A stretch of 64,000 bases of DNA from Acidobacteriota bacterium (GCA_016196035.1 JACPYM010000039.1:1-64000); one strand, 5' to 3'; counted from the stretch's first letter, positions 28,346-46,938 are shown. Made by a program: numbers and translations. The notes: generated by a model from the sequence alone, not told the origin.

Positions 28346-29353
28346 TTAAAGAGCGTCCAGCGCGCGCGGACTGCGCAAGACCCCGTGCATTTTCAGCAAT
28401 TGTTCGGGCGGTAGCGTTTCAGCGTATTCCAGCATTTGGCGGGCGCGTTCGTCGGCGCCGCGTATCTCGCGCTTTTCTTCCTCCGTCAGAGTCAGAATTC
28501 GTAACAGCAAAATCTCGTCAATCTCCGTTCCGTCAAAAAGATCGCCCGCGCTTTCGGGCGCAATCTGCGGATAGTCGTAAAGAATGATCGGCGACGCGAG
28601 CATCAGATTGCGTCCTCCCTCCTCTCCTGCCGGCACAGGTCCTGCCGGCACAGGTCCTGCCAGCACCGGCCATGCGCCAATGTTTTGGCAAGCGGCGGCG
28701 GCTTCCCGCAACTCTTCGGGCGGATCGAGCAGCGAGACAAACTCGCTGCCAGCCACCGCCAGAATCGTGTGGGTCGAAACAAACGATCCCAGCAAAGCTT
28801 CTTCGCGGGTTGTTATTGCGTCGTTTTCAAACGACGTCTGATTCGAAATCTTTACCGTGAGCTTGAATAGGCGGCCTGGCGCACGCGGCGAGCCGCAATC
28901 CACAGCCTGCATTTCCAACGCGCCGGCCAGCGCGGCCTGGCGGTAAACGACCTCGCCAACTGCCGCGCGTTCGCCTGCCTCCTCCGGCAGCGCTGAAAAG
29001 GAAAACGGCACACGTTGCGGCGCATTGAGCAACTGGCTCAGTGGCAAACCCGGCGCGTTCACCTCGCGCTCGACGGCTTCCTGCCAACTCGTCCCCGTTG
29101 CCGTGCGTTCGCGCAGATGCAGAAACCGCACTTTCACATCAAGGGTGGCGCTGGGACTGCCCAACACCAGACATTCCGTTTGCATCTGCCAGCGTTCCGT
29201 CCCCGGCGCTTGCGCGGCGCTGTATGACGGCGGCACAAGGACGCCAAAGTTGAAACGCCGCTGGTTTTTCACGGCGGACGGGCGATAGGGATAGAGCAGA
29301 TAGCCCTCATAAAGCACCGCGTTGGCGATCTTTTCGACCGGCTCCAAATTCAT
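28346..29353 (-). CDS. conserved hydrogenase-cluster protein of 335 residues
   Basis: Opens MNLEPVEKIANAVLYEGYLL, then YPYRPSAVKNQRRFNFGVLV. The C-terminal part contains NLMLASPIILYDYPQIAPES and an acidic helix around EIDEILLLRILTLTEEEK. I recall proteins of this shape next to DUF6084 and DUF5947 in group 1h clusters but cannot name the domain. The start overlaps the DUF6084 stop by four bases, so it belongs to the same operon. A role in assembly or electron transfer of the hydrogenase is inferred from context only. A short tandem repeat near 28630-28665 (CCTGCCGGCACAGGT) encodes the Pro-Ala-Gly stretch in its middle. Confidence 0.8.
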   Translation of the reverse strand: MNLEPVEKIANAVLYEGYLLYPYRPSAVKNQRRFNFGVLVPPSYSAAQAPGTERWQMQTECLVLGSPSATLDVKVRFLHLRERTATGTSWQEAVEREVNAPGLPLSQLLNAPQRVPFSFSALPEEAGERAAVGEVVYRQAALAGALEMQAVDCGSPRAPGRLFKLTVKISNQTSFENDAITTREEALLGSFVSTHTILAVAGSEFVSLLDPPEELREAAAACQNIGAWPVLAGPVPAGPVPAGEEGGRNLMLASPIILYDYPQIAPESAGDLFDGTEIDEILLLRILTLTEEEKREIRGADERARQMLEYAETLPPEQLLKMHGVLRSPRALDAL

Positions 29354-30006
29354 CGTTCTTTGCCCTCGCCGCTTGGCTCAACCAACAACAGGCGTTCAAT
29401 CGCTTGTTCCCACGTCGGAATGGCGTGCCGCATTTTGAATTGATGCAGCCGGTCAAACACGTCGCGCCGCAACCGCAACCAAGCGCTGTTGGGATAGTAA
29501 AGCTCCATCATGTCCCGCCAGACTTTGACGGGCAGCCGATAGCGCGTCTCTTTGCTCCACGAAATCTGCGTGACCTGCAACGCGCCGTCGGGTGCGGCAT
29601 AAAAGATCGTCCCGCTGAATTGCAAGACCAGCGGAATCTCGCCTGTTTCCAGCCCCGCGAAATACTTCGTCGCCGCCACGTTGAAATCGAAACTGCAAGG
29701 CACCGGCAAATCCACCACGACGCTACCAGTGAAAGACGGCACTGAGATGTTCGCGTGCGTCCACAGCAGCGTGCGCAGCGTCTGGCTCCAACGCGACGGC
29801 TCACCAAACAGATCAAGCAGTTGCGCCTGCTCAGTCACGCTGTAACGGCGGCGCGTCGGTTCGAGCTGAATCTGGCAACGCAACGCGACCGTGTGGATCG
29901 GCTCTTCCACGTCAGCGTTGGCAACGCCGAGCCGGAAATTCAATAAGGGCGCGACCGCATAAGCGACGGCTTCGGCCTCATACACCTGAAAATTCAAATC
30001 AGGCAC
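29350..30006 (-). CDS. DUF6084 family hydrogenase-cluster protein
   Basis: A 218-residue protein that starts at GTG 30006 (AGAGG seven bases upstream), giving MPDLNFQVYEAEAVAYAVAP. Diagnostic stretches: VALRCQIQLEPTRRRYS, LFGEPSRWSQTLRTLLW, VDLPVPCSFDFNVAATKYF, LVLQFSGTIFYAAPDGALQV and LRLRRDVFDRL. These match my memory of DUF6084, which travels with actinobacterial-type hydrogenases. Function unknown; no membrane segment or metal motif. It overlaps the DUF5947 gene by eight bases. Confidence 0.85.
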   Translation of the reverse strand: MPDLNFQVYEAEAVAYAVAPLLNFRLGVANADVEEPIHTVALRCQIQLEPTRRRYSVTEQAQLLDLFGEPSRWSQTLRTLLWTHANISVPSFTGSVVVDLPVPCSFDFNVAATKYFAGLETGEIPLVLQFSGTIFYAAPDGALQVTQISWSKETRYRLPVKVWRDMMELYYPNSAWLRLRRDVFDRLHQFKMRHAIPTWEQAIERLLLVEPSGEGKER

Positions 30007-30646
30007 GGGCGGCCTCTTTGACGACGATGGCGCGCGCCCGCAAGCCGGCAAAGAATTGCTCGATCTCGGCCCAGACCTCCGCGCCGCCCGACAAACCGCG
30101 CCAACGCGCGCGCAGCAGGCCCGTCAGCCGGTAACACTCATCAATCGGGACCAGCAGATATTCCGCCTTGCCGGTGGTGTTGGCGCGGCCCAGACGATTC
30201 ACGAGCAGCGCCTCGACATCCGGCGTCAATCCGCGCAACACCGGGTTTTGCCTCACAATTTCTTCCCAGGCTTCCAACGCGAGCAGCGATTCCGTCGCGC
30301 CCGCCGGACTCGGATAAAGCGCGACGACCCGGCCCGCCGTACTGCTGTGAAAAAAGAAGGCCATGTTGATCGGGATCAACAGACTCTCCCATTGCGCCTC
30401 GCTCAACTGAAAGTCAGGCAGCGCGCGAATGCGCTGCGGCACGCGCCGGTACTTCCCCGCTGGCCCGCTAAACAGCAGCGCGCACGCTCCACAGGCGCAG
30501 AGCAGTTTGCGGCTCGCCGGTTCGATCAGGTGTTGATGATCAACCGCGAGTTCCGCGCCGCACAGTTCGCAACGCTCGACCGGGGCGCGTGCCGGAATGA
30601 AGCGGCGCAGCGTAGCGAAGGCTTTGTTTTGCTCTGGCATTGGCAT
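29999..30646 (-). CDS. DUF5947 family hydrogenase-cluster protein
   Basis: A 215-residue protein. The ATG at 30646 is chosen because residues upstream are random; it opens MPMPEQNKAFATLRRFIP. The N-terminal Cys pairs RCELCGAEL (26, 29) and LLCACGACALLF (50-55) look like a zinc or Fe-S knuckle. IPINMAFFFHSSTAGRVVA, YPSPAGATESLL and PDVEALLVNRLG match DUF5947. Family function is unknown to me; the Cys set suggests a redox or assembly role. Confidence 0.85.
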   Translation of the reverse strand: MPMPEQNKAFATLRRFIPARAPVERCELCGAELAVDHQHLIEPASRKLLCACGACALLFSGPAGKYRRVPQRIRALPDFQLSEAQWESLLIPINMAFFFHSSTAGRVVALYPSPAGATESLLALEAWEEIVRQNPVLRGLTPDVEALLVNRLGRANTTGKAEYLLVPIDECYRLTGLLRARWRGLSGGAEVWAEIEQFFAGLRARAIVVKEAARA

Positions 30647-30749: not shown

Positions 30750-31640
30750 TTAATGGGACAAAGACGGCAAAGCGATCTTCGCCTGCCCCTGTTCGACCAA
30801 CAGCGGGAACGGTTCGAGGTGCAGGCCATGCCTGTCCAAACCACGCCCCGCGCGCAGCACGTCATAACGTTGCCCACAAGCAGAACAACTCAGCGCCGTG
30901 GCCGTCAGCGTCGCCGCCGTCAGCACTTGCCCGCAGGCGGGGCAGGTGTCGCCATAGGCATAAAACGCTTCGCCGACGTGACAAAAAAGCACGGAGCGCC
31001 CGGCCACTTCCATGCTTTTGACCGCGCCGCTGGCCAACGTCGTCACCCCGCTCACCTCTTCCCAACCGTGCGAATGATTGACCCCGTTGGCCGCGCCGTT
31101 CTGGCCCGGCGCGCGCTCTAATTGGACGAGGCTGGAGCGCGGCGTGTCCCCTACAACGCCTTCGACCTCCAACCCCGTCACGTCGGGAGCGGCTTCATAA
31201 ATCGCTTCCTCAATCGCCAGCTTCAGCGTCAGCGCTGACGAAGCGCAGCCATTGCAACTGCCTTGAAGCCGCAACCTAACGACCGCATCCGCAATACCTA
31301 TCAATTCGACATTGCCGCCGTGCGAGCGCAAATATGGCCGCACTTTGTCCAACGCCTGCAAGACGCGCGTTTCGAGGTCGAGCGGGTGCAGGCCGTACAG
31401 CAATAGCAAACTCGCCGCCAGCTCGTCGTCCGCCAAGCGATCAATGATCTCGCCACCGCCGGCCTCAAAGACAATCTCCAGCATCCGTTCGATGCCCGCG
31501 CCGTGCAGCTCCATCAACGCCTGCATCAATTCGACGGCGCTGGCCCGCACACGCGGGTCGGCAGCCGACTCGATTGTCTGCACCAATTGTTCGATCTTTT
31601 GTAGGCGTTGTTGAAAGTCTTTCCGGTCGAATTGAGCCAC
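30750..31640 (-). CDS. NifU-domain protein fused to a Rieske-like C-terminal domain
   Basis: A 296-residue fusion. GTG at 31640 has AGGAG seven bases upstream. The NFU domain occupies about 90-165 and ends in the Fe-S carrier motif GSCNGCASS (Cys129, Cys132). Residues about 205-285 look like a Rieske ferredoxin fold (LFCHVGEAFYAYGDTCPACG, then LSCSACGQRYDVLRAG). The usual Cys-X-His pairs are replaced by CPAC (233, 236) and CSAC (252, 255), so the site may bind a cluster with four Cys or a zinc ion. It lies 52 bases after hhyL. A role as electron acceptor or cluster donor to HhySL is likely. Confidence 0.87.
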   Translation of the reverse strand: MAQFDRKDFQQRLQKIEQLVQTIESAADPRVRASAVELMQALMELHGAGIERMLEIVFEAGGGEIIDRLADDELAASLLLLYGLHPLDLETRVLQALDKVRPYLRSHGGNVELIGIADAVVRLRLQGSCNGCASSALTLKLAIEEAIYEAAPDVTGLEVEGVVGDTPRSSLVQLERAPGQNGAANGVNHSHGWEEVSGVTTLASGAVKSMEVAGRSVLFCHVGEAFYAYGDTCPACGQVLTAATLTATALSCSACGQRYDVLRAGRGLDRHGLHLEPFPLLVEQGQAKIALPSLSH

Positions 31641-31692: not shown

Positions 31693-33474
31693 CTACCCAT
31701 GCACGCCGAACATCGGCGAATGGCGCGTTTCGAGCACCTTGCCGTTACCCAGATACATGTGCACGCCACAGGGCAAACACGGATCGAAGCTGCGCACGGC
31801 GCGCATGATGTCAATGCCTTTGAATTTGTCCGGGCCGTTTTCCTCAAAGATGGGCGTGTTTTGCACCGCGTCTTCATACGGCCCCGGCGTGCCGTAAATG
31901 TCGCGCGGGTTCGCGTTCCAGGGCGTGGGCGGGTAGGGATGATAGTTGGCGATCTTGCCGTCGCGGATGACGACGTGATGCGACAGCACGCCGCGCACCG
32001 CTTCGTGGAAACCGCAGCCGATGGCTTCTTCGGGCACTTTGAAATCCGTCCAGGTCTTGGTGTGGCCCGCGTGCAGTTCGGACATCGCCTGTTCGCAGAA
32101 ATAAAGCGCGCAGGCCGCGGCGTATGCCTGGAAGTAAGTCCGCGCACGGTCACGTTCGATGGCGTTCGACCATTTCGGCACTTTCCACTCGAATTCGACT
32201 TCGGGCATGGACATGGTTTTGGGCAAATAAATCTTGACGCTGTGGCCGGTGGCTTTGACATAACCGATGTCCACCAGCCCCGCGAGCGCCGTCGCCCACA
32301 ACCGTGCAATCGCGCCGCCGCCGGTATCCAGCGCCAGATGATCGCCCGTGCGTTTGTCCAGCCAGCGCGGCGACATCACCCAGGTGTAGTTGCCATCAAA
32401 ATCGCGTTTTTGCGGTTTCGGCACCGTCGTCTGATTCCACGGATGTTTCTGATCCACCGGATTGCCCAGCGGGTCTTTCTTGACGAACGTTTCAGAGTTG
32501 TCCCAATCGTCATAGTAAGAACTGCCGAGCAGAATGCGGATGTTGAGATTGATGTCCACCAGATCGGTCGTGACCAGTTTGTCGTCCACCACCACGCCCG
32601 GCGTGACATACATCGCGCGGCCCCAGTCGCTCATGTTCTGGTAGGTGTAATCGCAAATGTCGGGGTTGTTGAACGAACCCCAGCAACCCAGCAGCACGCG
32701 CCGCTGGCCGACCTTTTCGTAACCGGGCAGGGCCTGGTAAAAGAAATCGAAGAGGTCATCGTGCAGCGGCACAACCTTCTTCATGAATTCGACATAGCGC
32801 ATCAGCCGCACCAGATAGTCGGTGAAAAGCTGCACGGTGGGCACGGTGCCGACGCCGCCCGGATAGAGCGTCGAAGGGTGTACGTGTTTGCCTTCCATCA
32901 GACAAAACATCTCGCGCGTGTAGCGGCTCGTTTGCAACGCCTCGCGATAAAATTCGCCGGTGAAGGGATTGAGCGCCGTCATGATGTCGGAGATTTTGCG
33001 GTAACCGTGGATGGCGGCGTGCGGCGCGTCGGTCTTCTTGGCCTTCTCCCAGACGCTCGGATTGGTTTCCTTGACCATCTGTTCGCAGAAATCCACACCG
33101 ACCAGATTATCCTGAAAGATATTGTGGTCGAACATGTACTCCGCCGCTTCGCCCAGATTGACGATCCATTCGGCCATCGCGGGCGGGTGTATGCCGAAAG
33201 CCATGTTCTGGGCGTAGGTCGCGCAGGTCGCGTGATTGTCGCCACAGATGCCGCAGATGCGCGAAGTGATGAAATGGGCGTCGCGCGGGTCTTTGCCTTT
33301 CATGAAGATGCTGTAGCCGCGAAAGATCGAAGAGGTGCTGTGGCACTCGGCGACTTCGCGGTTCTCGAAATCAATCTTGGTGTAAATGCCCAAGCTCCCG
33401 ACGATGCGTGTGATCGGGTCCCAGTTCATCTCGACCAGCTTGCGATCCGTGGTGCTTTTCGTTGCGGTAGCCAT
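31693..33474 (-). CDS. hhyL: group 1h [NiFe]-hydrogenase large subunit
   Basis: The 593-residue catalytic subunit oxidises H2 at a NiFe(CN)2CO site. ATG at 33474 has AAGGAG nine bases upstream. The L1 motif is RICGICGDNHATCA with Cys74 and Cys77, the L2 motif is DPCLPCGVH with Cys566, Cys569 and His572. The protease should cut after His572, removing a 21-residue tail (MYLGNGKVLETRHSPMFGV...). RICGICGDNHATC and the overall length are those of the actinobacterial-type, group 1h (HhyL) enzymes known to scavenge atmospheric H2. It has no partner for the second small subunit. It follows hhyS by 31 bases. Confidence 0.95.
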   Translation of the reverse strand: MATATKSTTDRKLVEMNWDPITRIVGSLGIYTKIDFENREVAECHSTSSIFRGYSIFMKGKDPRDAHFITSRICGICGDNHATCATYAQNMAFGIHPPAMAEWIVNLGEAAEYMFDHNIFQDNLVGVDFCEQMVKETNPSVWEKAKKTDAPHAAIHGYRKISDIMTALNPFTGEFYREALQTSRYTREMFCLMEGKHVHPSTLYPGGVGTVPTVQLFTDYLVRLMRYVEFMKKVVPLHDDLFDFFYQALPGYEKVGQRRVLLGCWGSFNNPDICDYTYQNMSDWGRAMYVTPGVVVDDKLVTTDLVDINLNIRILLGSSYYDDWDNSETFVKKDPLGNPVDQKHPWNQTTVPKPQKRDFDGNYTWVMSPRWLDKRTGDHLALDTGGGAIARLWATALAGLVDIGYVKATGHSVKIYLPKTMSMPEVEFEWKVPKWSNAIERDRARTYFQAYAAACALYFCEQAMSELHAGHTKTWTDFKVPEEAIGCGFHEAVRGVLSHHVVIRDGKIANYHPYPPTPWNANPRDIYGTPGPYEDAVQNTPIFEENGPDKFKGIDIMRAVRSFDPCLPCGVHMYLGNGKVLETRHSPMFGVHG

Positions 33475-33505: not shown

Positions 33506-34570
33506 TCAATAAGACCTGGGCCGATAACCGGTGGTCAGTTCTGTGCGCGCGTGCCGCCACTTCGGTTCTTTGTTGAGGGTGGCATTGGTTAGATTGCGCA
33601 ATGAACTGATTGCTTTGCCGTAAAGGCCGACGGCGGATGATGAAAGTTTGCCGCCCGGCGGTTCGTCCATAAACGGCATGAATTTGTCGGGGAAACCGGG
33701 CATCGTGCAGCCGATGCAAATGCCGCCGACGTTCGGACAGCCGCCGACGCCACCGACCCAACCACGCTTGGGCACGTTGCAATTGACCACCGGCCCCCAG
33801 CAGCCCAGCTTGACGATGCATTTGGGCGAGCCGTATTCGCTGGCGAAATCGCCCTGCTCGTAATAGCCCGCGCGGTCGCAGCCCTCGTGCACCGTGCTGC
33901 CGAACAGCCACAGCGGACGCCCGACCTCATCCAGCGGAATCATCGGCGCGAGTCCCGAGGCCTGATAGAGCAGGTAAAGCACCGTCTCCATGAAATTGTC
34001 GGGATGCACCGGACAGCCGGGCACATTGACGATGGGAATGCCCGCGAACGATTTCCACTCCCAGCCCAGATAATCGGCCAGCCCCATCGCGCCGGTCGGA
34101 TTGCCTTCCATCGCGTGGATGCCGCCGTAGGTGGCGCAGGTTCCGATGGCCACAACGGCCAGCGCTTTAGGCGAGAGCCGGTCAATCCATTCGTTGGTGG
34201 TGATGGGCTGGCCGGTCTTGGCATCGGTACCGAGCGCGGCCCAATAACCTTCAGCCTTGATCTTCTCGTTGGGAATCGAGCCTTCGACGACCAGCACAAA
34301 GGGGTTGAGTTCGCCACGCTCAGCCTTGTACCAGTAGTCCATGAATTCGTCGCCGTTTTCATAGGCCAGCACCGGGTTGTGCAAATGAACTTTGGGTAAC
34401 CCCGGGATTGCGCCTAACAGGACGTCTTCGACGCTGGGCTGTGTGGCAGAGGTAATGGCGACGGAATCGCCGTCACACCCCAGCCCGGCGGTGATCCAGA
34501 CGATATGCACATCGCTGACCGCAGGCGCACGCTGTGTCACCCGGCCATACGGAACCGTTTCTGTAGCCAT
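33506..34570 (-). CDS. hhyS: group 1h [NiFe]-hydrogenase small subunit
   Basis: A 354-residue iron-sulfur subunit passing electrons from HhyL. ATG at 34570 has AAAGGAGG upstream. Fe-S motifs: WITAGLGCDGDSVA (Cys32, then Asp33 and Asp35 where standard enzymes have CTGC), AIGTCATYGG, VPGCPVHPDN, HEGCDRAGYYE for the distal His/Cys site, KLGCWGPVVNC and GGICIGCTMPGFPDKF. Group 1h enzymes are known to bind the proximal cluster with three Cys and one Asp, which fits. There is no Tat signal, so the enzyme is cytoplasmic or held on the inner face of the membrane. Confidence 0.95.
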   Translation of the reverse strand: MATETVPYGRVTQRAPAVSDVHIVWITAGLGCDGDSVAITSATQPSVEDVLLGAIPGLPKVHLHNPVLAYENGDEFMDYWYKAERGELNPFVLVVEGSIPNEKIKAEGYWAALGTDAKTGQPITTNEWIDRLSPKALAVVAIGTCATYGGIHAMEGNPTGAMGLADYLGWEWKSFAGIPIVNVPGCPVHPDNFMETVLYLLYQASGLAPMIPLDEVGRPLWLFGSTVHEGCDRAGYYEQGDFASEYGSPKCIVKLGCWGPVVNCNVPKRGWVGGVGGCPNVGGICIGCTMPGFPDKFMPFMDEPPGGKLSSSAVGLYGKAISSLRNLTNATLNKEPKWRHARTELTTGYRPRSY

Positions 34571-34733
34571 GCTTGTACCTCCTTTCCGCCTTTTGCCCGG
34601 CGGATGGTTGGATGATGATGGAATCGTGGTGGGACTGCCGCTTGTGCAGCCTGCCTCATGAACTTGCAATATTGAGACCGTTGTTTACCTGGGCATTTTG
34701 CGGCGCGGGCGGCTGGCTGTCTATTCGCAAACC

Positions 34734-34784
34734 TACGCAGCGGGCCTACGTAAAGCTACGTATTTGGTCAGAAAAAGCTACGTA
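34734..34784. promoter_or_regulatory. cluster of TACGTA palindromes upstream of hhyS
   Basis: Three perfect TACGTA hexamers at 34747-34752, 34757-34762 and 34779-34784, preceded by TACGCA at 34734. Start-to-start spacing is 10 and 22 bases, close to one and two helical turns. They lie about 177-215 bases upstream of the hhyS start, in the gap after the NarL-type regulator gene. An operator for that regulator is plausible but unproven. Confidence 0.45.
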
Positions 34785-34791
34785 CTTGTCA

Positions 34792-34974
34792 TTAGCTCGG
34801 ATTGCAGAGTGGTGTACGGGAAAAAGCGCGCTCCGGGGCAGTACCGCGCGCGTCAGCAAGCGGTGCGTCAACGCTGGCGCAATACGGCACATCCTGAGTC
34901 TCCGCTTGCTGACGCGCGCGGTACTGCCCCGGAGCGCGCCGCCTGTACATTCAATTGCAAACTGATCCAATTTT
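34792..34974. repeat. MITE-like palindrome, copy 4 (upstream of hhyS)
   Basis: About 183 bases with perfect 38-base inner arms (34826-34863 and 34902-34939), which start GCGCGCTCCGGGGCAGTACC. The outer parts (TTAGCTCGG, GTGTACGGGAAAA, CAATTGCAAACTGATCCAA) match the outer parts of copies 2 and 3. It lies between the regulator gene and the hydrogenase structural genes, next to the TACGTA cluster. Confidence 0.85.
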
Positions 34975-34999
34975 GCGGCGGGGCGGCAGGTGCGCGACC

Positions 35000-35674
35000 T
35001 CAGAGCGTTGTGGCTTTTTCCAGGGGGATGATGCCGCGCCGCAGGGCGTATCGGATCAGGTCAGCCTGTGTATGCACAGCAAGCTTGTGCATTAACCGCG
35101 AACGGTGTGTTTCCGCCGTGCGCACGCTGATGCCGAGCCGAGTGGCAATCTCGCTGTTGGTGTGGCCCTCGACGGTGAGTTGCAGCACTTCGCGTTCGCG
35201 CGTGGTGAGGGTTTCGTATTTGTCGAGCGTCCCGGCGTTGGCGACTTGTTGATACGCTTCAATCGCACGGTCAGAAAGCGGCGGGCTGAGATAACGATGA
35301 CCGGCGGCGACTTCGCGCACGGCCTGCACCAGGTCTGAGGAACCGGCATCCTTGAGCACATAAGCCGAGACGCCGTTGGCGAGGGCTTCGAGCACGAAGC
35401 CTTCGTCATCGTACATTGAAAGGATGACGATGCGCGTCTGCGGCATCAGCTTGCTGATCTGGCGCGCGGCTTCCAGGCCGTTCAAGCCGCGCATCATCAG
35501 GTCGAGCACGGCGACATCGGGGCGAAACTTGTTGACCATCGCTATCGCTTCCAGCCCGTCGCCCGCCGCGCCGACCACATTGAAATCAGGCTCGGCCTTG
35601 AGCAGCACGCACAAACCTTCCCGCACAATCCGATGATCGTCGGCCAGCACGATGGTGGTCGTTTTCGCGCTCAT
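35000..35674 (-). CDS. NarL/FixJ-family response regulator
   Basis: A 224-residue regulator: receiver domain with VLADDH acidic pair, phosphoacceptor Asp58 in AVLDLMMRG and Lys in YVLKDAGSS; LuxR-type HTH at the C-terminus (LTTREREVLQLTVEGHTNSE, then LGISVRTAETHRSRLMHKL). Its start lies only six bases after the stop of the PAS kinase, so the two are a cognate pair. It is the last gene before the hydrogenase structural genes and probably controls them, perhaps through the TACGTA sites. Control of other targets is not excluded. Confidence 0.93.
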   Translation of the reverse strand: MSAKTTTIVLADDHRIVREGLCVLLKAEPDFNVVGAAGDGLEAIAMVNKFRPDVAVLDLMMRGLNGLEAARQISKLMPQTRIVILSMYDDEGFVLEALANGVSAYVLKDAGSSDLVQAVREVAAGHRYLSPPLSDRAIEAYQQVANAGTLDKYETLTTREREVLQLTVEGHTNSEIATRLGISVRTAETHRSRLMHKLAVHTQADLIRYALRRGIIPLEKATTL

Positions 35675-35680
35675 TTGAAT

Positions 35681-37375
35681 TCACCCTTCGTTGTGAAATT
35701 GCAGTTGGGGATGTTCGTCAAAATTCCATTCCGCCCGCAACCGTGCGCCCTGGCCCGGCTGCGCTTCGACAGTGAACTGGCCGCCCAACAACATGGCCCG
35801 TTCGCGCATCCCGGCCAAACCGGTGGAGCGGTCAGCCGCCAGCGCCGTTTCGGGGTCAAACCCTTTGCCGTGATCTTCGATCTCAGCGGCGAGCGTATGC
35901 TGATCGGCCCAGATGCGCACCAGCGCTGCTGCCGCGCCGGAGTGCCGGGCGACGTTGGTCAGCGCTTCCTGCACGATGCGAAAAGCGGCGGTTTCGAGTT
36001 CCGCCGCAAAGCGCCGGCCTTCCAGCCCGTTGTGCCGAAAATCCACGCGCACCTGTGTCTGCGACGTGTATTGGCGGATATGCCGCAAGAGCGCCGAAAG
36101 CAACCCCAGATGATCGAGTGTCGCGGGTCGTAAATCGAGCGACAGCTTGCGGGTGCGCGCCATCAATTCGTTGACCAGCGCTTGGGCTTCCGCCAGATTG
36201 GCGTGCAAATTGGCGTGCGCGCCCTCGCTTGACAGCCGGTCGGCCATTTCCAGTTTGAGCTTGAGACCGGTCAGAATCTGGCCGATCTCGTCGTGCAATT
36301 CCAGGGCCATGCCGCGCCGCTCGGCTTCCTGCACGGCGATCAGGCGGCGCGAAAGCACCGTCATACGTTCGGCATAATCGCGCAACGCCTCTTCGGCACC
36401 CTGCCGCCGCGTGATGTCACGAATCACCGCGATGACCAGGTGATGCGACTCGGCTTCGACCGGACTGAGCATGATTTCAACCGGGAATTCGCTGCCGTCT
36501 TTGCGGCGGCCATAGAGCACCAATTCCAAACCCATCGGGCGCAAATGCGGGTCGGTCACGTAATCCGCGCGATGCATCACGTGCCGCGCTCTGAAGCGTT
36601 CGGGCAAGAGCGTTTCAACCGGCTGGCCCAGCAATTCGTCCGGCGCATAGCCGAACATGCGTTCGACCTGGGCGTTGACGCGCTCGATGCGCCCGCTGCC
36701 GCCCACCACCACCATCGTGTCCGGCGCATGTTCAAAAATCCCGCGCAACAGTTCCTCGCTTTGGCTCAGGGCCTCTTCCGTCTGCTTAAGCTCACTGATG
36801 TCAAAGCCGATGCCGTGAATGAACCAGGGCCGCCCGTCGGGGTGGCGCACCATTTTTACTTCGCAATGAAACCAGACCACGCGTCCATCCCGCGCCAAGA
36901 CGCGATAAACCGAGCGCAACGACTCGCCGGTCAAAAACATCCGCGCGGCTTCGCTGCTCCAACGCGCTTTGTCATCCGGGTGAATTTGCTGATACCAGCG
37001 CACCGGGTCTTGCAGCCATTCGGCTTGGGTAAAGCCGAGCGTGCGTTCGATCTGCGGGCTGACATAAGCCTCGCCGATCCCCTGATCGAAAAACGCCAGA
37101 AAAACCACCGCCGGCACCTGTTCGACCAGAATGCGATAGGTATCCTTGACGCCAGGCCAATCTTTCTCGCCCTGGGCGAACTCTTCGCTAAACGCGCGCG
37201 GCTTTTGTCCAGGAGGTGTTTCGGTGGGATAGAAAACGCCGGCCAGGGCGTTCAACACGGTTTCGGCTTCGAGCAGGTCAACGGGCAGAGGCGCATTTGG
37301 CAGCGCGCCCGCGCGTTCGCCGTCAAACGCCAAAAGTAAATCCTCAAGCATAATTGGCCAATCCCCCGTCATCAT
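35681..37375 (-). CDS. PAS-PAS sensor histidine kinase in hydrogenase locus
   Basis: A 564-residue kinase without membrane segments, so cytoplasmic. Start is the ATG at 37375 or 37372, with GAGGCAGG upstream; the longer open frame to 37681 only mirrors the small-subunit gene in another frame. PAS1 occupies about 78-195 (HPDDKARWSSEA, FHCEVKMVRHPDGRPWF), PAS2 about 205-325 (FGYAPDELLG), HisKA_3 about 335-410 with phosphoacceptor His361 in LELHDEIGQILTG, and the HATPase about 440-555 (AFRIVQEALTNVARHSGA, GLAGMRERAMLLGG). It begins 20 bases after hhyS2. In the known HoxBC/HoxJ system a PAS kinase reads out a regulatory hydrogenase; by analogy this kinase may read out HhyS2. Confidence 0.92.
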   Translation of the reverse strand: MMTGDWPIMLEDLLLAFDGERAGALPNAPLPVDLLEAETVLNALAGVFYPTETPPGQKPRAFSEEFAQGEKDWPGVKDTYRILVEQVPAVVFLAFFDQGIGEAYVSPQIERTLGFTQAEWLQDPVRWYQQIHPDDKARWSSEAARMFLTGESLRSVYRVLARDGRVVWFHCEVKMVRHPDGRPWFIHGIGFDISELKQTEEALSQSEELLRGIFEHAPDTMVVVGGSGRIERVNAQVERMFGYAPDELLGQPVETLLPERFRARHVMHRADYVTDPHLRPMGLELVLYGRRKDGSEFPVEIMLSPVEAESHHLVIAVIRDITRRQGAEEALRDYAERMTVLSRRLIAVQEAERRGMALELHDEIGQILTGLKLKLEMADRLSSEGAHANLHANLAEAQALVNELMARTRKLSLDLRPATLDHLGLLSALLRHIRQYTSQTQVRVDFRHNGLEGRRFAAELETAAFRIVQEALTNVARHSGAAAALVRIWADQHTLAAEIEDHGKGFDPETALAADRSTGLAGMRERAMLLGGQFTVEAQPGQGARLRAEWNFDEHPQLQFHNEG

Positions 37376-37395
37376 AGGCTGGCCTGCCTCGTCGC

Positions 37396-38442
37396 TTATT
37401 CGCGTGTACGCCGCCGCCACACCGGTTCCTGATTGAGTGACGCCTGGGTGAAGCGCCGCAAGGCGTGAATCGCGCGGCCATAGGTCATCACGGCCTGCGA
37501 CGAGAGCAACGAACCCGGCGGTTGATCCATAAATGGCATGAACTTGTCCGGGAAGCCGGGCATCGTGCAACCGATGCAAATGCCGCCCACGTTCGGACAG
37601 CCGCCAATGCCGCCCATCCAGCCGCGCTTGCCGACGTTGCATTGCACGACCGGCCCCCAGCAACCGAGTTTCACGATGCAATGCCGCGAACCATACTCTT
37701 CGGCAAACTGCGCCTGTTCGTAATAGCCGCCGCGATCACAGCCCTCGTGCACCGTCTCGCCATACAACCAAGTTGGCCGCAACGCCCCATCAAGCGGAAT
37801 CAGCGGCGCGCGTCCGGCAGCCTGATAAAGCAGATACAGCAACGTCTCGGTGATATTATCCGGCGGCGTCGGGCACCCCGGCACGCATACAATCGGGATG
37901 CCTGCCGCTGATTTCCACTGCCAGCCCAGATAATCCGGCAGCCCCATCGCGCCCGTCGGATTGCCCTGCATCGCGTGAATGCCGCCATACGCCGAACAGG
38001 TGCCGACCGCGACCACAGCCCAGGCGCGCGGCGTCAGACGATCAATCCATTCACAAGTGGTGATCGGTTGGCCCGTCGCAGGATCAACGCCCAGCGCCGC
38101 CCAATAGCCTTCCGCTTTAATCGTTTCGTTTGGAATGGAACCTTCGATGACGAGGATAAACGGATCGAGCTGGCCTTGCTCTGCCTGGTAAAGCAACGCC
38201 ATGAATTCATCGCCGTTTTCGTAGCTATAAAACGGGTTGTGGAACTTGACCTGGGGCAAGCCCGGCAAGCTGCCCAGGACGAGGTCTTCGATGCTCGGTT
38301 GCGTGGCCGCCGTGAGCGCGACCGATTCCCCGTCACAGCCCAGTCCCGCCGTCAGCCATAGAATTTCTATTTTTTGCAGCGGCTCCGGCCTGGATGGTGG
38401 TGTACCGGCGATGGTCTGTTGTGGCTTCTGATGCTGTTTCAT
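37396..38442 (-). CDS. second group 1h-type hydrogenase small subunit, no partner large subunit
   Basis: A 348-residue paralogue of HhyS, similar over the whole length. The ATG at 38442 opens MKQHQKPQQTIAGTPP; a TTG at 38487 is an alternative. All Fe-S motifs are kept: WLTAGLGCDGESVA (Cys36), AVGTCSAYGG, VPGCPTPPDN, HEGCDRGGYYE, KLGCWGPVVQC, GGICIGCTMPGFPDKF. Differences to HhyS include Glu39 for Asp at the CDGD position, extra Cys in TTCEWIDRL and VCVPGCP, and a different N-terminus. No second large subunit exists in the window, so it either pairs with HhyL or works alone. Its place directly before a PAS kinase and regulator suggests a sensory role. No signal peptide. Confidence 0.9.
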   Translation of the reverse strand: MKQHQKPQQTIAGTPPSRPEPLQKIEILWLTAGLGCDGESVALTAATQPSIEDLVLGSLPGLPQVKFHNPFYSYENGDEFMALLYQAEQGQLDPFILVIEGSIPNETIKAEGYWAALGVDPATGQPITTCEWIDRLTPRAWAVVAVGTCSAYGGIHAMQGNPTGAMGLPDYLGWQWKSAAGIPIVCVPGCPTPPDNITETLLYLLYQAAGRAPLIPLDGALRPTWLYGETVHEGCDRGGYYEQAQFAEEYGSRHCIVKLGCWGPVVQCNVGKRGWMGGIGGCPNVGGICIGCTMPGFPDKFMPFMDQPPGSLLSSQAVMTYGRAIHALRRFTQASLNQEPVWRRRTRE

Positions 38443-43217: not shown

Positions 43218-46200
43218 GTGTTTGACCCAGGCCGAAGCAACTCTAAATTTTTACCGCGCCACTGGCTGCGCCACGGATTGCCTTGGCTGGCGGCGGGATT
43301 GTGCTTGTGCAGCCTGCTGACGATGCTGGCGGGCAGCGGCTTCGGGCAGACAGTCGGCCTGCGTAAAGTATTCGGGCGCTATCAGCAGTTGGTTTGGCAC
43401 GATCAACACGGCTTGCCGGAAAACAGCGTGATGGCGATTACCCAAACGCGCGATCAGTATTTGTGGGTCGCGACCGTGGAAGGCGTGGCGCGATTTGACG
43501 GGGTACACTTCACTGTTTTCGACCGGAACAATACCCCGGCGCTCAAACACAACCACGTCCTGTCGCTACACGAAGACCGGCAAGGCGATCTGTGGTTGGG
43601 GACGAATGGCGGGGGCGTGACGCGCTATCACGCCGGGCAGTTCAGCAATTATGGCGTCGCCGACGGCTTGACGGATGGGCGCGTGTGGGCGCTCCTGGAT
43701 GACCGCGCGGGCAATCTCTGGCTGGGGACAGAAGGCGGCGGACTCAATCGTTTTCGGGATGGCCGTTTCAGCGTTTTTAACATGCAAAACGGACTGCCGG
43801 ATAACCGCATCTGGGCCTTGGTCGAAGATCGCGAGGGCGCGCTCTGGATTGGCACGCGCGGCGGCCTGGCGCGCTTCAAAGATGAGCGCTTTACCAGTTG
43901 GACCACCAAAGATGGCTTGCCGAACGATTTCGTGCGTGCGCTGTGCCTCGATCGTGACGGAAGTCTTTGGGTCGGCACAGACGGGGGCGGGATGGCGCGC
44001 TTCAGCGAGGGGCGCTTCACCGTGTACGACATGAAATCCGGGCTGACGAGCAATTCCGTCTTCTCGATTCGCCAGGATCAAATGGAAGATCAGCTCTGGA
44101 TTGGCACACTGGGCGGCGGCGTGCTGCGTTTTCGGCATGGCAATTTCACGCCTTACACCACGGCTGAAGGCTTGCCCTCTGACCGCGTCAATGTGCTTTA
44201 CCAGTCGCGCGGCGGCGACCTCTGGGTCGGTTTGAGCGGGTTCGGGCTGTGTCAGATCAGAGTCGGGCGCGTGGGCGTCGTGACGGCGGAAGACGGGCTG
44301 ATTCACGATTACATCAGGCCGATCATCGAGGATGCAACGGGCAGTCTCTGGGTCGGCACGGTCGAGGGTTTGACCCGCATCAAAGCGGGGAAGTTCACCT
44401 CTTGGACGACAAAAGACGGGCTGCCCAACAATTACATCAACGCGCTGCGTGAGGATCGTGACGGCGCGCTTTGGATTGGCACACGCGGCGGGCTGGCCTG
44501 TTTCAAAGCTGAGCATTTCACGGTGTGGACAACCAAAGAAGGGCTGCCCGAAAACAACCTGCGCTCCATCGTGACAGATCATGCAGGAGACGTTTGGATC
44601 GGCACATACGGAGGCGGTTTGGCGCGCCTGCGCGACGGGCAATTTACCACTTTGACCGCGCGTGACGGATTGCCGAATAACACCGTGGAGGCCTTGTGCG
44701 TAGATCGCGCCGACAATCTCTGGATCGGCACCTGGGGCGGCGGACTCAGTCGTTACCACAAAGGGCGTTTCACCACTTGGACGACCCAGGACGGGTTGGC
44801 GAGCAATCACATTTATGCCTTATTTGAAGCGGCCGACGGAGCGCTCTGGATTGGCACGGGCGGCGGCGGTCTGAGTCGCTTCAAAGACGGCAAGTTTGCC
44901 AACGTCGCGGTGAAGAACGGCCTTTATGACGACCTCACGTATAACATCATGGTGGATGATCTGGGCGATATGTGGCTCAACGGTAACAAGGGCCTCTCCC
45001 GCGTGAGCTGGCAGGAATTGAATGATTTTTGCGATGGGCGGCGCACGTCAGTCACCTCCTATTCTTTCGACACGGCTGACGGGATGTTGAGCCGCGAAGG
45101 CAATCGGGCACAACCCGCTGGCTGGAAGTCGCGGGATGGCCGACTTTGGTTTCCAACACTCAAAGGCGTGGCAGTAATTGATCCGCGCATTCGCGAAAAG
45201 CAACCGCCGCAAATCAACATCGAAGCAGTCAAACTAGCGGGGCAAAAATTCTCTGTCGGCTCACTCTTACGTATCGAACCGGGCCAGGAGGGACTGGAAA
45301 TTCAATACACCGGACTGGACTGGGGCCGCCCACAGCAAGTCAGCTTCAAATATCAGATGGTAGGCTTGGAGCAGAATTGGATCGGGGCGGGAACGCGCCG
45401 CACCGCCTACTATTCCTACCTGCCGCCGGGCGAATACACGTTCCGCGTGATCGCCAGCAATGGTGACGGCGTATGGAACACGGAAGGTCGCAGTTTACGC
45501 GTGGTCGTGCTGCCGCCGTTTTACCGCACGTGGTGGTTCCGCGCGCTGGTCGCGTTATCGCTGGCAGGCGTCATCGGGCTGCTTTTCAAACGGCGGCTGG
45601 AGCGCGCCAACCGCGCCCGCCGCGCGCAGGAAGAGTTTTCGCGCCGTCTGATTGATTCGCAGGAACAAGAACGCAAACGGATCGCCGCCGAATTGCACGA
45701 CAGTCTGGGGCAAAATTTGCTGGTCATCAAAAACTACGCGCTGATGGGCTTGAACGCCGCCAACGGCGGGAATCCGTTGCGCGAACACCTGGATGAAATA
45801 TCCGAAGCGGCGTCGCAATCACTCGCCGAGGTGCGCCAGATTTCGCATAATCTGCGGCCGTATCAACTCGAACGGCTGGGGCTGACCAATACTTTGCAAA
45901 CAATGTTGCGCCAGGTCGCCAATGCTTCCGACATCGGCTTCAGCAGCGAAGTCGAACCGCTTGACGGCTTGTTTGCGCCGGAAGATGAAATTAGCATTTA
46001 TCGCATCGTGCAGGAGGCGCTCAACAACATTCTCAAACACTCTGACGCGCAGGAAGCCAGCGTGTTTATCAAACACATGGACGGCGAAATTCAGATCACG
46101 ATTACCGATGACGGGCGCGGCTTTACGGTTGAGCCGGCGAGTCGCGCTGAAATGCAACAGCGCGGACTGGGCCTGACCGGCACCGCCGAGCGCGTGCGCA

Positions 46201-46295
46201 TCCTGGGCGGCAAACTGAGCATTCATTCTGCGCCCGGCCAAGGAACCACACTCCACATCACGCTGAAACCAAATACGCATGGCAGTACCAACTGA
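43218..46295 (+). CDS. two-component beta-propeller sensor histidine kinase
   Basis: A 1025-residue kinase. It starts at GTG 43218 and has a signal-anchor (about 20-45). Fourteen or so propeller repeats with LWIGT-GGG(L)-RF and DGLPNN motifs fill about 50-650, forming a large periplasmic sensor. A Y_Y_Y domain follows (about 690-770, FKYQMVGLEQNWIGAG, PPGEYTFRVIASNGDG), then one membrane helix (RALVALSLAGVIGLLF), HisKA_3 with His827 in AELHDSLGQN and a HATPase ending in GLTGTAERVRILGGKLS. Such kinases often sense polysaccharide-derived ligands. It overlaps the regulator gene by 17 bases. Confidence 0.93.
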   Translation: MFDPGRSNSKFLPRHWLRHGLPWLAAGLCLCSLLTMLAGSGFGQTVGLRKVFGRYQQLVWHDQHGLPENSVMAITQTRDQYLWVATVEGVARFDGVHFTVFDRNNTPALKHNHVLSLHEDRQGDLWLGTNGGGVTRYHAGQFSNYGVADGLTDGRVWALLDDRAGNLWLGTEGGGLNRFRDGRFSVFNMQNGLPDNRIWALVEDREGALWIGTRGGLARFKDERFTSWTTKDGLPNDFVRALCLDRDGSLWVGTDGGGMARFSEGRFTVYDMKSGLTSNSVFSIRQDQMEDQLWIGTLGGGVLRFRHGNFTPYTTAEGLPSDRVNVLYQSRGGDLWVGLSGFGLCQIRVGRVGVVTAEDGLIHDYIRPIIEDATGSLWVGTVEGLTRIKAGKFTSWTTKDGLPNNYINALREDRDGALWIGTRGGLACFKAEHFTVWTTKEGLPENNLRSIVTDHAGDVWIGTYGGGLARLRDGQFTTLTARDGLPNNTVEALCVDRADNLWIGTWGGGLSRYHKGRFTTWTTQDGLASNHIYALFEAADGALWIGTGGGGLSRFKDGKFANVAVKNGLYDDLTYNIMVDDLGDMWLNGNKGLSRVSWQELNDFCDGRRTSVTSYSFDTADGMLSREGNRAQPAGWKSRDGRLWFPTLKGVAVIDPRIREKQPPQINIEAVKLAGQKFSVGSLLRIEPGQEGLEIQYTGLDWGRPQQVSFKYQMVGLEQNWIGAGTRRTAYYSYLPPGEYTFRVIASNGDGVWNTEGRSLRVVVLPPFYRTWWFRALVALSLAGVIGLLFKRRLERANRARRAQEEFSRRLIDSQEQERKRIAAELHDSLGQNLLVIKNYALMGLNAANGGNPLREHLDEISEAASQSLAEVRQISHNLRPYQLERLGLTNTLQTMLRQVANASDIGFSSEVEPLDGLFAPEDEISIYRIVQEALNNILKHSDAQEASVFIKHMDGEIQITITDDGRGFTVEPASRAEMQQRGLGLTGTAERVRILGGKLSIHSAPGQGTTLHITLKPNTHGSTN

Positions 46296-46938
46296 ACTCC
46301 GCATCATCATTGCCGACGATCATCCTATTTTCCGGCGCGGCTTGCGCTTGGTTATCGAAAGCGATCCGCACCTAAGAGTCATCGCTGAAGCCGACGACGG
46401 CGCGGCGGCGCTCACTTTGATTCAAACCCATCAACCCCAAATTGCCGTGCTCGATATGGACATGCCGCAACTCGACGGACTAAGCGTGGCGCGCGCGCTG
46501 CGTGAACAGCAGTCACCGACCGCCGTCGTTTTTCTGACCATGCACAAGGATGAAGCGACGTTTAACGCTGTACTCAACGCGGGCGTCAAAGGTTATGTGG
46601 TCAAAGACGGCGCAGCCAACGAAATCGTCGGCGCGATCAAGGCCGTTGCCGCCGGGCAAAGCTATTTCAGCCCCGTGCTTTCCAACCATTTATTGCAGCA
46701 TCGTAAAGGGGCGGGCGAACCTGGCGCGCCGCAATCCGGGCTAGAAACACTGTCGCCCACCGAACGCCGCGTGCTGCGGTTGATTGCCGAGTCCAAAGCC
46801 AACAAAGAAATCGCCGAACTGCTTTTCATCAGCGTGCGCACTGTCGAACATCATCGCTCAAACATCTGCGCCAAACTGGGCTTGAACGGAAAGCACGCGC
46901 TGCTGACGTTTGCGCTGACGCACAAGTCCAAGCTTTAG
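46279..46938 (+). CDS. NarL/FixJ-family response regulator of the propeller kinase
   Basis: A 219-residue regulator. Receiver with IADDHPIF, phosphoacceptor Asp in IAVLDMDMPQLDG, Lys in GYVVKDGAANE; LuxR-type HTH near the end (LSPTERRVLRLIAESKANKE, LFISVRTVEHHRSNI). The start lies 17 bases inside the kinase gene, which ties expression of both. The likely targets include the receiver gene and the giant protein downstream. Confidence 0.93.
   Translation: MAVPTELRIIIADDHPIFRRGLRLVIESDPHLRVIAEADDGAAALTLIQTHQPQIAVLDMDMPQLDGLSVARALREQQSPTAVVFLTMHKDEATFNAVLNAGVKGYVVKDGAANEIVGAIKAVAAGQSYFSPVLSNHLLQHRKGAGEPGAPQSGLETLSPTERRVLRLIAESKANKEIAELLFISVRTVEHHRSNICAKLGLNGKHALLTFALTHKSKL

Follow-up and report, generated by a model that had tools for sequence, protein, structure and literature searches.

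An orphan group 1h hydrogenase small subunit paired with a PAS kinase and a NarL-type regulator: a candidate sensory module for an acidobacterial hhySL operon

Group 1h hydrogenases play a major part in the consumption of atmospheric H2, and what is known of their regulation comes mostly from growth-phase data. A hydrogenase-based sensory system has been described in the group 2b form, where the soluble hydrogenase-derived unit HoxBC (HupUV) is encoded beside a soluble PAS histidine kinase (HoxJ/HupT) and the regulator HoxA (HupR) controls an uptake hydrogenase, features that recur, or appear to recur, at the locus explored here. For group 1h, an extra hhyS about 3,600 bp upstream of hhySL has been reported in Edaphobacter aggregans, strain KBS 83 and Pyrinomonas (P. 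methylaliphatogenes), the homologue being transcribed in KBS 83 and not detected in E. aggregans, and hhySL induction has been ascribed to carbon starvation or limitation (PMC8027828). That study reports only the extra copy and its transcription, with neither kinase nor regulator in its main text. The E. aggregans gene (locus L045 in our set) is of the same type as the gene here called hhyS2, so a previous sequence-only reading of this DNA, which knew of no description of the arrangement, went too far.

The locus was found in a stretch of 64,000 nucleotides of acidobacterial DNA, the whole of which is hereafter called the window. The gene order is hhyS2, PAS-PAS kinase, NarL-type regulator, hhyS, hhyL, NifU, DUF5947 and DUF6084, all on the minus strand (Table 1). 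Gene calls and Pfam agree with the sequence-only reading on the soluble PAS-PAS kinase, the NarL-type regulator and the spacings, with 20 bases between the hhyS2 stop and the kinase ATG and 6 bases between the kinase stop and the regulator gene. These genes do lie directly before hhySL, as had been claimed; the 429-base gap between the regulator gene and hhyS holds a dispersed palindromic repeat of 114 bases as well as a candidate regulatory array. The palindrome has at least about 40 copies in the genome, with three more copies, all partial, elsewhere in the window (21.5, 25.3 and 26.2 kb); as a dispersed repeat, this large inverted repeat before hhyS was rejected as a regulatory element. No Rfam family was found in the region. 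Elsewhere in the window (43218-46938, plus strand) the translation reads as another two-component pair, unrelated to this one, in which a long beta-propeller-like sensor ending in a histidine kinase precedes a NarL-type regulator.

Table 1. Positions of the features discussed, in the window unless a locus is named.
Feature	Position	Strand	Description
hhyS2	37396..38442	-	orphan group 1h-type small subunit, S2 clade, 348 aa
sensor kinase, soluble	35681..37375	-	PAS_3-PAS-HisKA_3-HATPase_c
response regulator, NarL/FixJ-type (type A)	35000..35674	-	Pfam Response_reg and GerE
114-base imperfect palindrome, MITE-like, dispersed	34826..34939	.	between regulator gene and array; outside the system
TRCGTAG array	34733..34784	-	upstream of hhyS; candidate regulator-binding array
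TRCGTAG sites	34778-34784, 34756-34762, 34746-34752, 34733-34739	-	four in array
conserved box TRCGTAGNNYTRCGAATA	34722..34739	-	sole match in the genome, 1 mismatch allowed
hhyS, enzyme small subunit (S1 clade)	33506..34570	-	
hhyL	31693..33474	-	sole group 1h-type large subunit of the genome
NifU-domain protein, group 1h operon	30750..31640	-	
DUF6084 protein, group 1h operon	29350..30051	-	
REC and NtrC-type sigma-54 regulator genes	L049:13713-16549, L066:9913-13173	opposite to kinase	

We propose that hhyS2, the kinase and the regulator constitute a dedicated sensory module for the adjoining hydrogenase operon, and give this reading as a whole a probability of roughly 0.55. We infer the following chain of contacts. 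HhyS2 would be a small subunit specialised for signalling that draws on the common pool of mature HhyL, the two together making up an HhyL-HhyS2 unit. Oxidation of H2 at this unit, or the redox state of its clusters, would be conveyed to the PAS_3 domain of the kinase by an S2-specific C-terminal segment, upon which phosphotransfer would take the signal to the NarL/FixJ-type regulator, whose DNA binding at an element before hhyS would control hhySL. The regulator, kinase and large-subunit steps of this scheme appear well supported by the comparative evidence.

HhyS2 is 72% identical to HhyS, has HofK of the actinobacterial-type hydrogenase of Cupriavidus necator as best solved relative (PDB 5aa5, E 1e-167) and contains both Oxidored_q6 (PF01058) and NiFe_hyd_SSU_C (PF14720); this top similarity and domain pair are those of a group 1h small subunit. 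Its ligands C36, C149, C190, H232, C235, C255, C261, C268, C282, C289 and C292, assigned to individual clusters by homology, are invariant among 30 sequences. The claim that all Fe-S motifs are present holds for the Cys and His ligands and needs correcting for the proximal motif, which reads GLGCDGES in HhyS2 versus GLGCDGDS in HhyS and HofK. In group 1h enzymes a specific Asp has been described as a ligand of the proximal cluster (PMC7174314); we take it to be the Asp of this CxxD because the canonical motif is CxxC, and the window protein has likely replaced this ligand by Glu, thereby departing from the group 1h pattern. Glu is also found in the S2 (HhyS2-type) proteins of G011, G008, G017, G024, L039 and L080, and most S2 proteins from Blastocatellia carry it. 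Those of Terriglobia and G020 retain Asp, and the substitution was therefore rejected as a universal mark of the sensor subunit. The C-terminus of the window HhyS2 is short and without the TTGY tail of HhyS, and most S2 proteins likewise lack the TTGY conserved in S1, the enzyme subunits. Conservation of residues 300-340 is 0.89 within S2, 0.73 within S1 and 0.60 between the two, the reverse of other regions, where variability of S2 equals or exceeds that of S1; this segment is our candidate for a kinase-facing surface.

In a quick tree of 99 HhyS-type proteins, built without bootstrap, the acidobacterial S2 proteins form a single clade (SH-aLRT 95), with L058, L071 and L099 as sister rows and L049 near the base of the other side. 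L066 and L071 each have a small and a large subunit together (S-L pairs), and the stretch of each also encodes a PAS_3 kinase; L058, the small subunit of which is very like that of L066, stops within hhyL, its stretch not extending to the kinase position. Judged by this tree HhyS2 belongs to an old, separate clade spread over Blastocatellia, Terriglobia and Planctomycetota, and a recent duplication of the window's hhyS is rejected. The earlier description as a duplicated enzyme subunit is right in that HhyS2 is a HhyS paralogue and understates its age. It may reasonably be supposed that a complete kinase-linked hydrogenase preceded the acidobacterial form, which would later have used the large subunit of the enzyme.

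Scanning of named genomes yielded 79 loci. Of 396 acidobacterial genomes sampled separately, 14 have HhyS-type genes and ten of these have an S2-type gene, in nine cases alongside an ordinary hhyS; a survey of 392 Planctomycetota genomes turned up the starting genome only. All 27 distinct orphan S2-type genes (25 from Acidobacteriota, two from Planctomycetota; the loci are related and the counts hence not independent) are directly followed by a PAS kinase gene, and not by a large subunit gene as would be usual for a group 1h small subunit. Given this pairing, and with no kinase listed directly beside S1-only loci, a chance neighbourhood was rejected. In 21 of the 23 acidobacterial cases with a long enough contig the next gene after the kinase encodes a NarL-type regulator, the exceptions being G008 and G020. 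S2 stays with the kinase where hhySL is on another contig (G017, G020 and the planctomycete loci L049 and L099), and also in G008, where the order is rearranged. In the latter genome (L132:2267-8055) hhyS2 is flanked by two different PAS_3 kinases, both near the hhySL operon, one with a regulator upstream and the other directly after hhyS2.

PAS_3 (about residues 78-200 of the window kinase) is present in all 28 aligned S2-linked kinases, which have HisKA_3 (22), HisKA (5) or HisKA_2 (1) as transmitter. Identity across these kinases is 0.69 in PAS_3 versus 0.36-0.37 in the second PAS and kinase domain, and at E 1e-15 no second PAS_3 copy was found in the window genome. By this alignment PAS_3 is the conserved input domain of S2-linked kinases, and HhyS2 is probably the partner that provides the input. 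A different input is conceivable: HhyS2 might sense redox state or O2 as an Fe-S protein without a large subunit, with kinase and regulator acting on hhySL as an O2 or redox switch of FixL/FixJ type. The second PAS of the window kinase strongly matches FixL heme PAS domains and has a His at the heme-ligand position, the structural model (pLDDT 76) is most like the FixL PAS pair with FixL as Foldseek top match, and TACGTAG resembles the published FixJ SELEX site GTAMGTAG (PMC4999443). With such a FixL-like second PAS, sensing of O2 or redox state has to be taken seriously as a competing input, and heme input is possible in the window kinase. This His is, however, restricted to the window kinase and close relatives and missing from many S2-linked kinases, where only PAS_3 is conserved throughout, which is why heme-PAS was rejected as common input. 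Furthermore, S2 was found only in genomes that also encode an HhyL-type subunit, has relatives in S-L pairs and is the sole small subunit of this type in G017, all of which makes a sensor without large subunit unlikely.

The sensory-module reading gains its strongest support for a dedicated circuit from promoter elements, new relative to the sequence-only reading, which had guessed the link between regulator and hhySL from gene order. We distinguish type A loci, with a regulator orthologous to that of the window, from type B loci, with another NarL-type regulator about 30% identical to type A. Phased TACGTAG repeats (the CGTAG element) precede hhyS in 7/7 type A loci and 0/74 others, while the palindrome ATCRGGGAATCCCYGAT precedes hhyS in 14 of 19 type B loci when two mismatches are allowed and in all 19 with three. 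Neither element is carried by 54 of 55 promoters without neighbouring regulator; the exception has the palindrome, three mismatches being allowed (L065, on a contig starting just upstream). The Fisher p for the association of element and regulator is about 3e-10, a value that overstates independence because the genomes are related. In L080 the hhyS groups with the type A relatives of the window, yet regulator and promoter are both type B, so that the element tracks the regulator rather than the hydrogenase. The window's pair of TRCGTAG sites 22 bases apart is expected 0.03 times per 64 kb even with two mismatches. Of 28 genomes searched throughout, five, all of type A, have exact matches to the CGTAG box, in each case before hhyS and nowhere else; the palindrome, when one mismatch is allowed, occurs once each in two genomes and twice in another, and was not found in the Terriglobia that lack S2, the sites of Edaphobacter lichenicola having three mismatches and hence falling below this search. 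Control of hhySL by the two-component system is very likely, since the elements switch with regulator type and, in the genomes scanned throughout, are nearly single-copy. One case stands against the model: G017 (L134, L135) has a regulator nearer type A and a palindrome-like site, ATCAGGAAATTCCCGAT, directly before hhyL.

No large subunit gene adjoins hhyS2, and the window genome encodes one HhyL-type subunit, which retains the RxCGxC and DPCxxC motifs and a C-terminal tail, plus two further, distant hydrogenase-like pairs (29-40%) that are unlike HhyS2; the view that hhyS2 has no large subunit of its own stands. Each genome searched has exactly one large subunit of HhyL type besides weak matches to distant hydrogenases, and a PAS kinase gene lies beside the additional small subunit gene in every case, the two points that the sequence-only reading had proposed as a test. 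G017 (99% complete) has an unrelated two-component system rather than hhyS upstream of hhyL and its S2 gene is found on another contig; if HhyL works there, S2 is its partner. From this distribution HhyS2 quite probably uses HhyL.

A further hydrogenase-like S-L pair, 36-40% identical to HhySL, was observed on contig C2 of G000 (L156:2406-10848, minus strand), with relatives in L158 and L125-L131. It looks NiFe-dead, as RxCGxC is lost and the large subunit breaks off immediately ahead of CxxC, at RSFDP; its small subunit is without the distal-cluster region, and next comes a hybrid histidine kinase of 1744 aa with multiple PAS/GAF domains. G008 has one small and two NiFe-dead-looking large subunits of this kind followed by a hybrid kinase of 1140 aa, G006 also has one small and two large subunits, G003, G009 and G010 have comparable truncated or motif-less large subunits, and G030 has a relative with intact motifs. 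Such pairs are possibly a family of hydrogenase-derived sensors.

HhyS2 could alternatively be a second electron-transfer subunit that makes HhyL-HhyS2 an isoenzyme with another acceptor or O2 tolerance, kinase and regulator being ordinary regulators kept nearby for co-inheritance. The retention of all Cys and His ligands, the Asp-to-Glu exchange of most Blastocatellia S2, which could tune the proximal cluster, and the seeming reliance of G017 on S2 alone agree with this, but S2 goes with the kinase and not with hhyL when the locus splits, one of the two promoter elements precedes 0/26 S2 genes versus 26/26 hhyS genes beside a regulator, and the S1 tail is missing in most S2; we consider it as improbable as the O2 or redox switch. 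That HhyS2 is a functionless leftover duplicate beside a two-component system controlling hhySL is very improbable, since, although duplicate subunits can persist for a time and the loci of G020 and G008 are rearranged, the dN/dS of S2 (0.03-0.06) demonstrates strong purifying selection, the ligands are invariant, the old clade has persisted in all three lineages and all 27 orphan genes are paired with a kinase.

Under the sensory-module reading H2 is modestly favoured as the signal, although it may not be the main one given the carbon-starvation induction and the transcription data (PMC8027828). Sharing of HhyL, which would form the high-affinity enzyme with HhyS and an H2 sensor docked to the PAS kinase with HhyS2, is put forward tentatively, at slightly less than even odds; the cell would then read near-atmospheric H2 with the same active site that consumes it.

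Compared with known systems, HhyS2 shares with group 2b the adjacent PAS histidine kinase and was rejected as a HoxBC-type regulatory hydrogenase by subunit identity, large subunit and regulator class. HoxB is 33% identical to HhyS2, as against about 70% for HofK; HoxBC has its own large subunit, in which HoxC ends at DPCxxCxxH without C-terminal extension, whereas HhyS2 has none and HhyL keeps its tail; HoxJ differs from the window kinase in its single PAS, its lack of PAS_3 and its HisKA transmitter; and HoxA is an NtrC-type sigma-54 activator, whereas acidobacterial regulators are NarL-type. NtrC-type genes were seen near L049 and L066 only: there, genes for one REC protein and for a sigma-54 regulator of NtrC type lie close to planctomycete S2-type kinase genes, an arrangement that recalls HoxA. 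With HhySL/HofKG of group 1h, the locus shares the small-subunit family and the NifU, DUF5947 and DUF6084 partners; HhyS2 differs as a kinase-linked orphan paralogue of its own clade, with a distinct C-terminal segment and mostly, in Blastocatellia, Glu at the likely Asp-ligand position. FixL/FixJ resembles it in the PAS-PAS kinase, regulator family and TACGTAG site and differs in that here the transmitter is HisKA_3, a different PAS_3 is conserved and the constant neighbour is a hydrogenase subunit; equivalog scores are below cut-off (FixL 123 bits vs 850, FixJ 86 vs 255). A literature search, not exhaustive, found no paper linking the extra hhyS with a kinase and none joining atmospheric H2, PAS domain and small subunit; one deals with group 1h and Acidobacteria and also mentions a response regulator, the latter in another connection. 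The extra hhyS is thus already published, its pairing with a kinase was not found described, and HoxBC-HoxJ-HoxA works similarly. The analysis offers for group 1h a concrete regulator, DNA element and candidate sensor, in cultured strains (Edaphobacter), and if HhyS2 borrows HhyL, a gas sensor would have arisen from an enzyme by swapping the electron-transfer subunit only, evolved apart from HoxBC.
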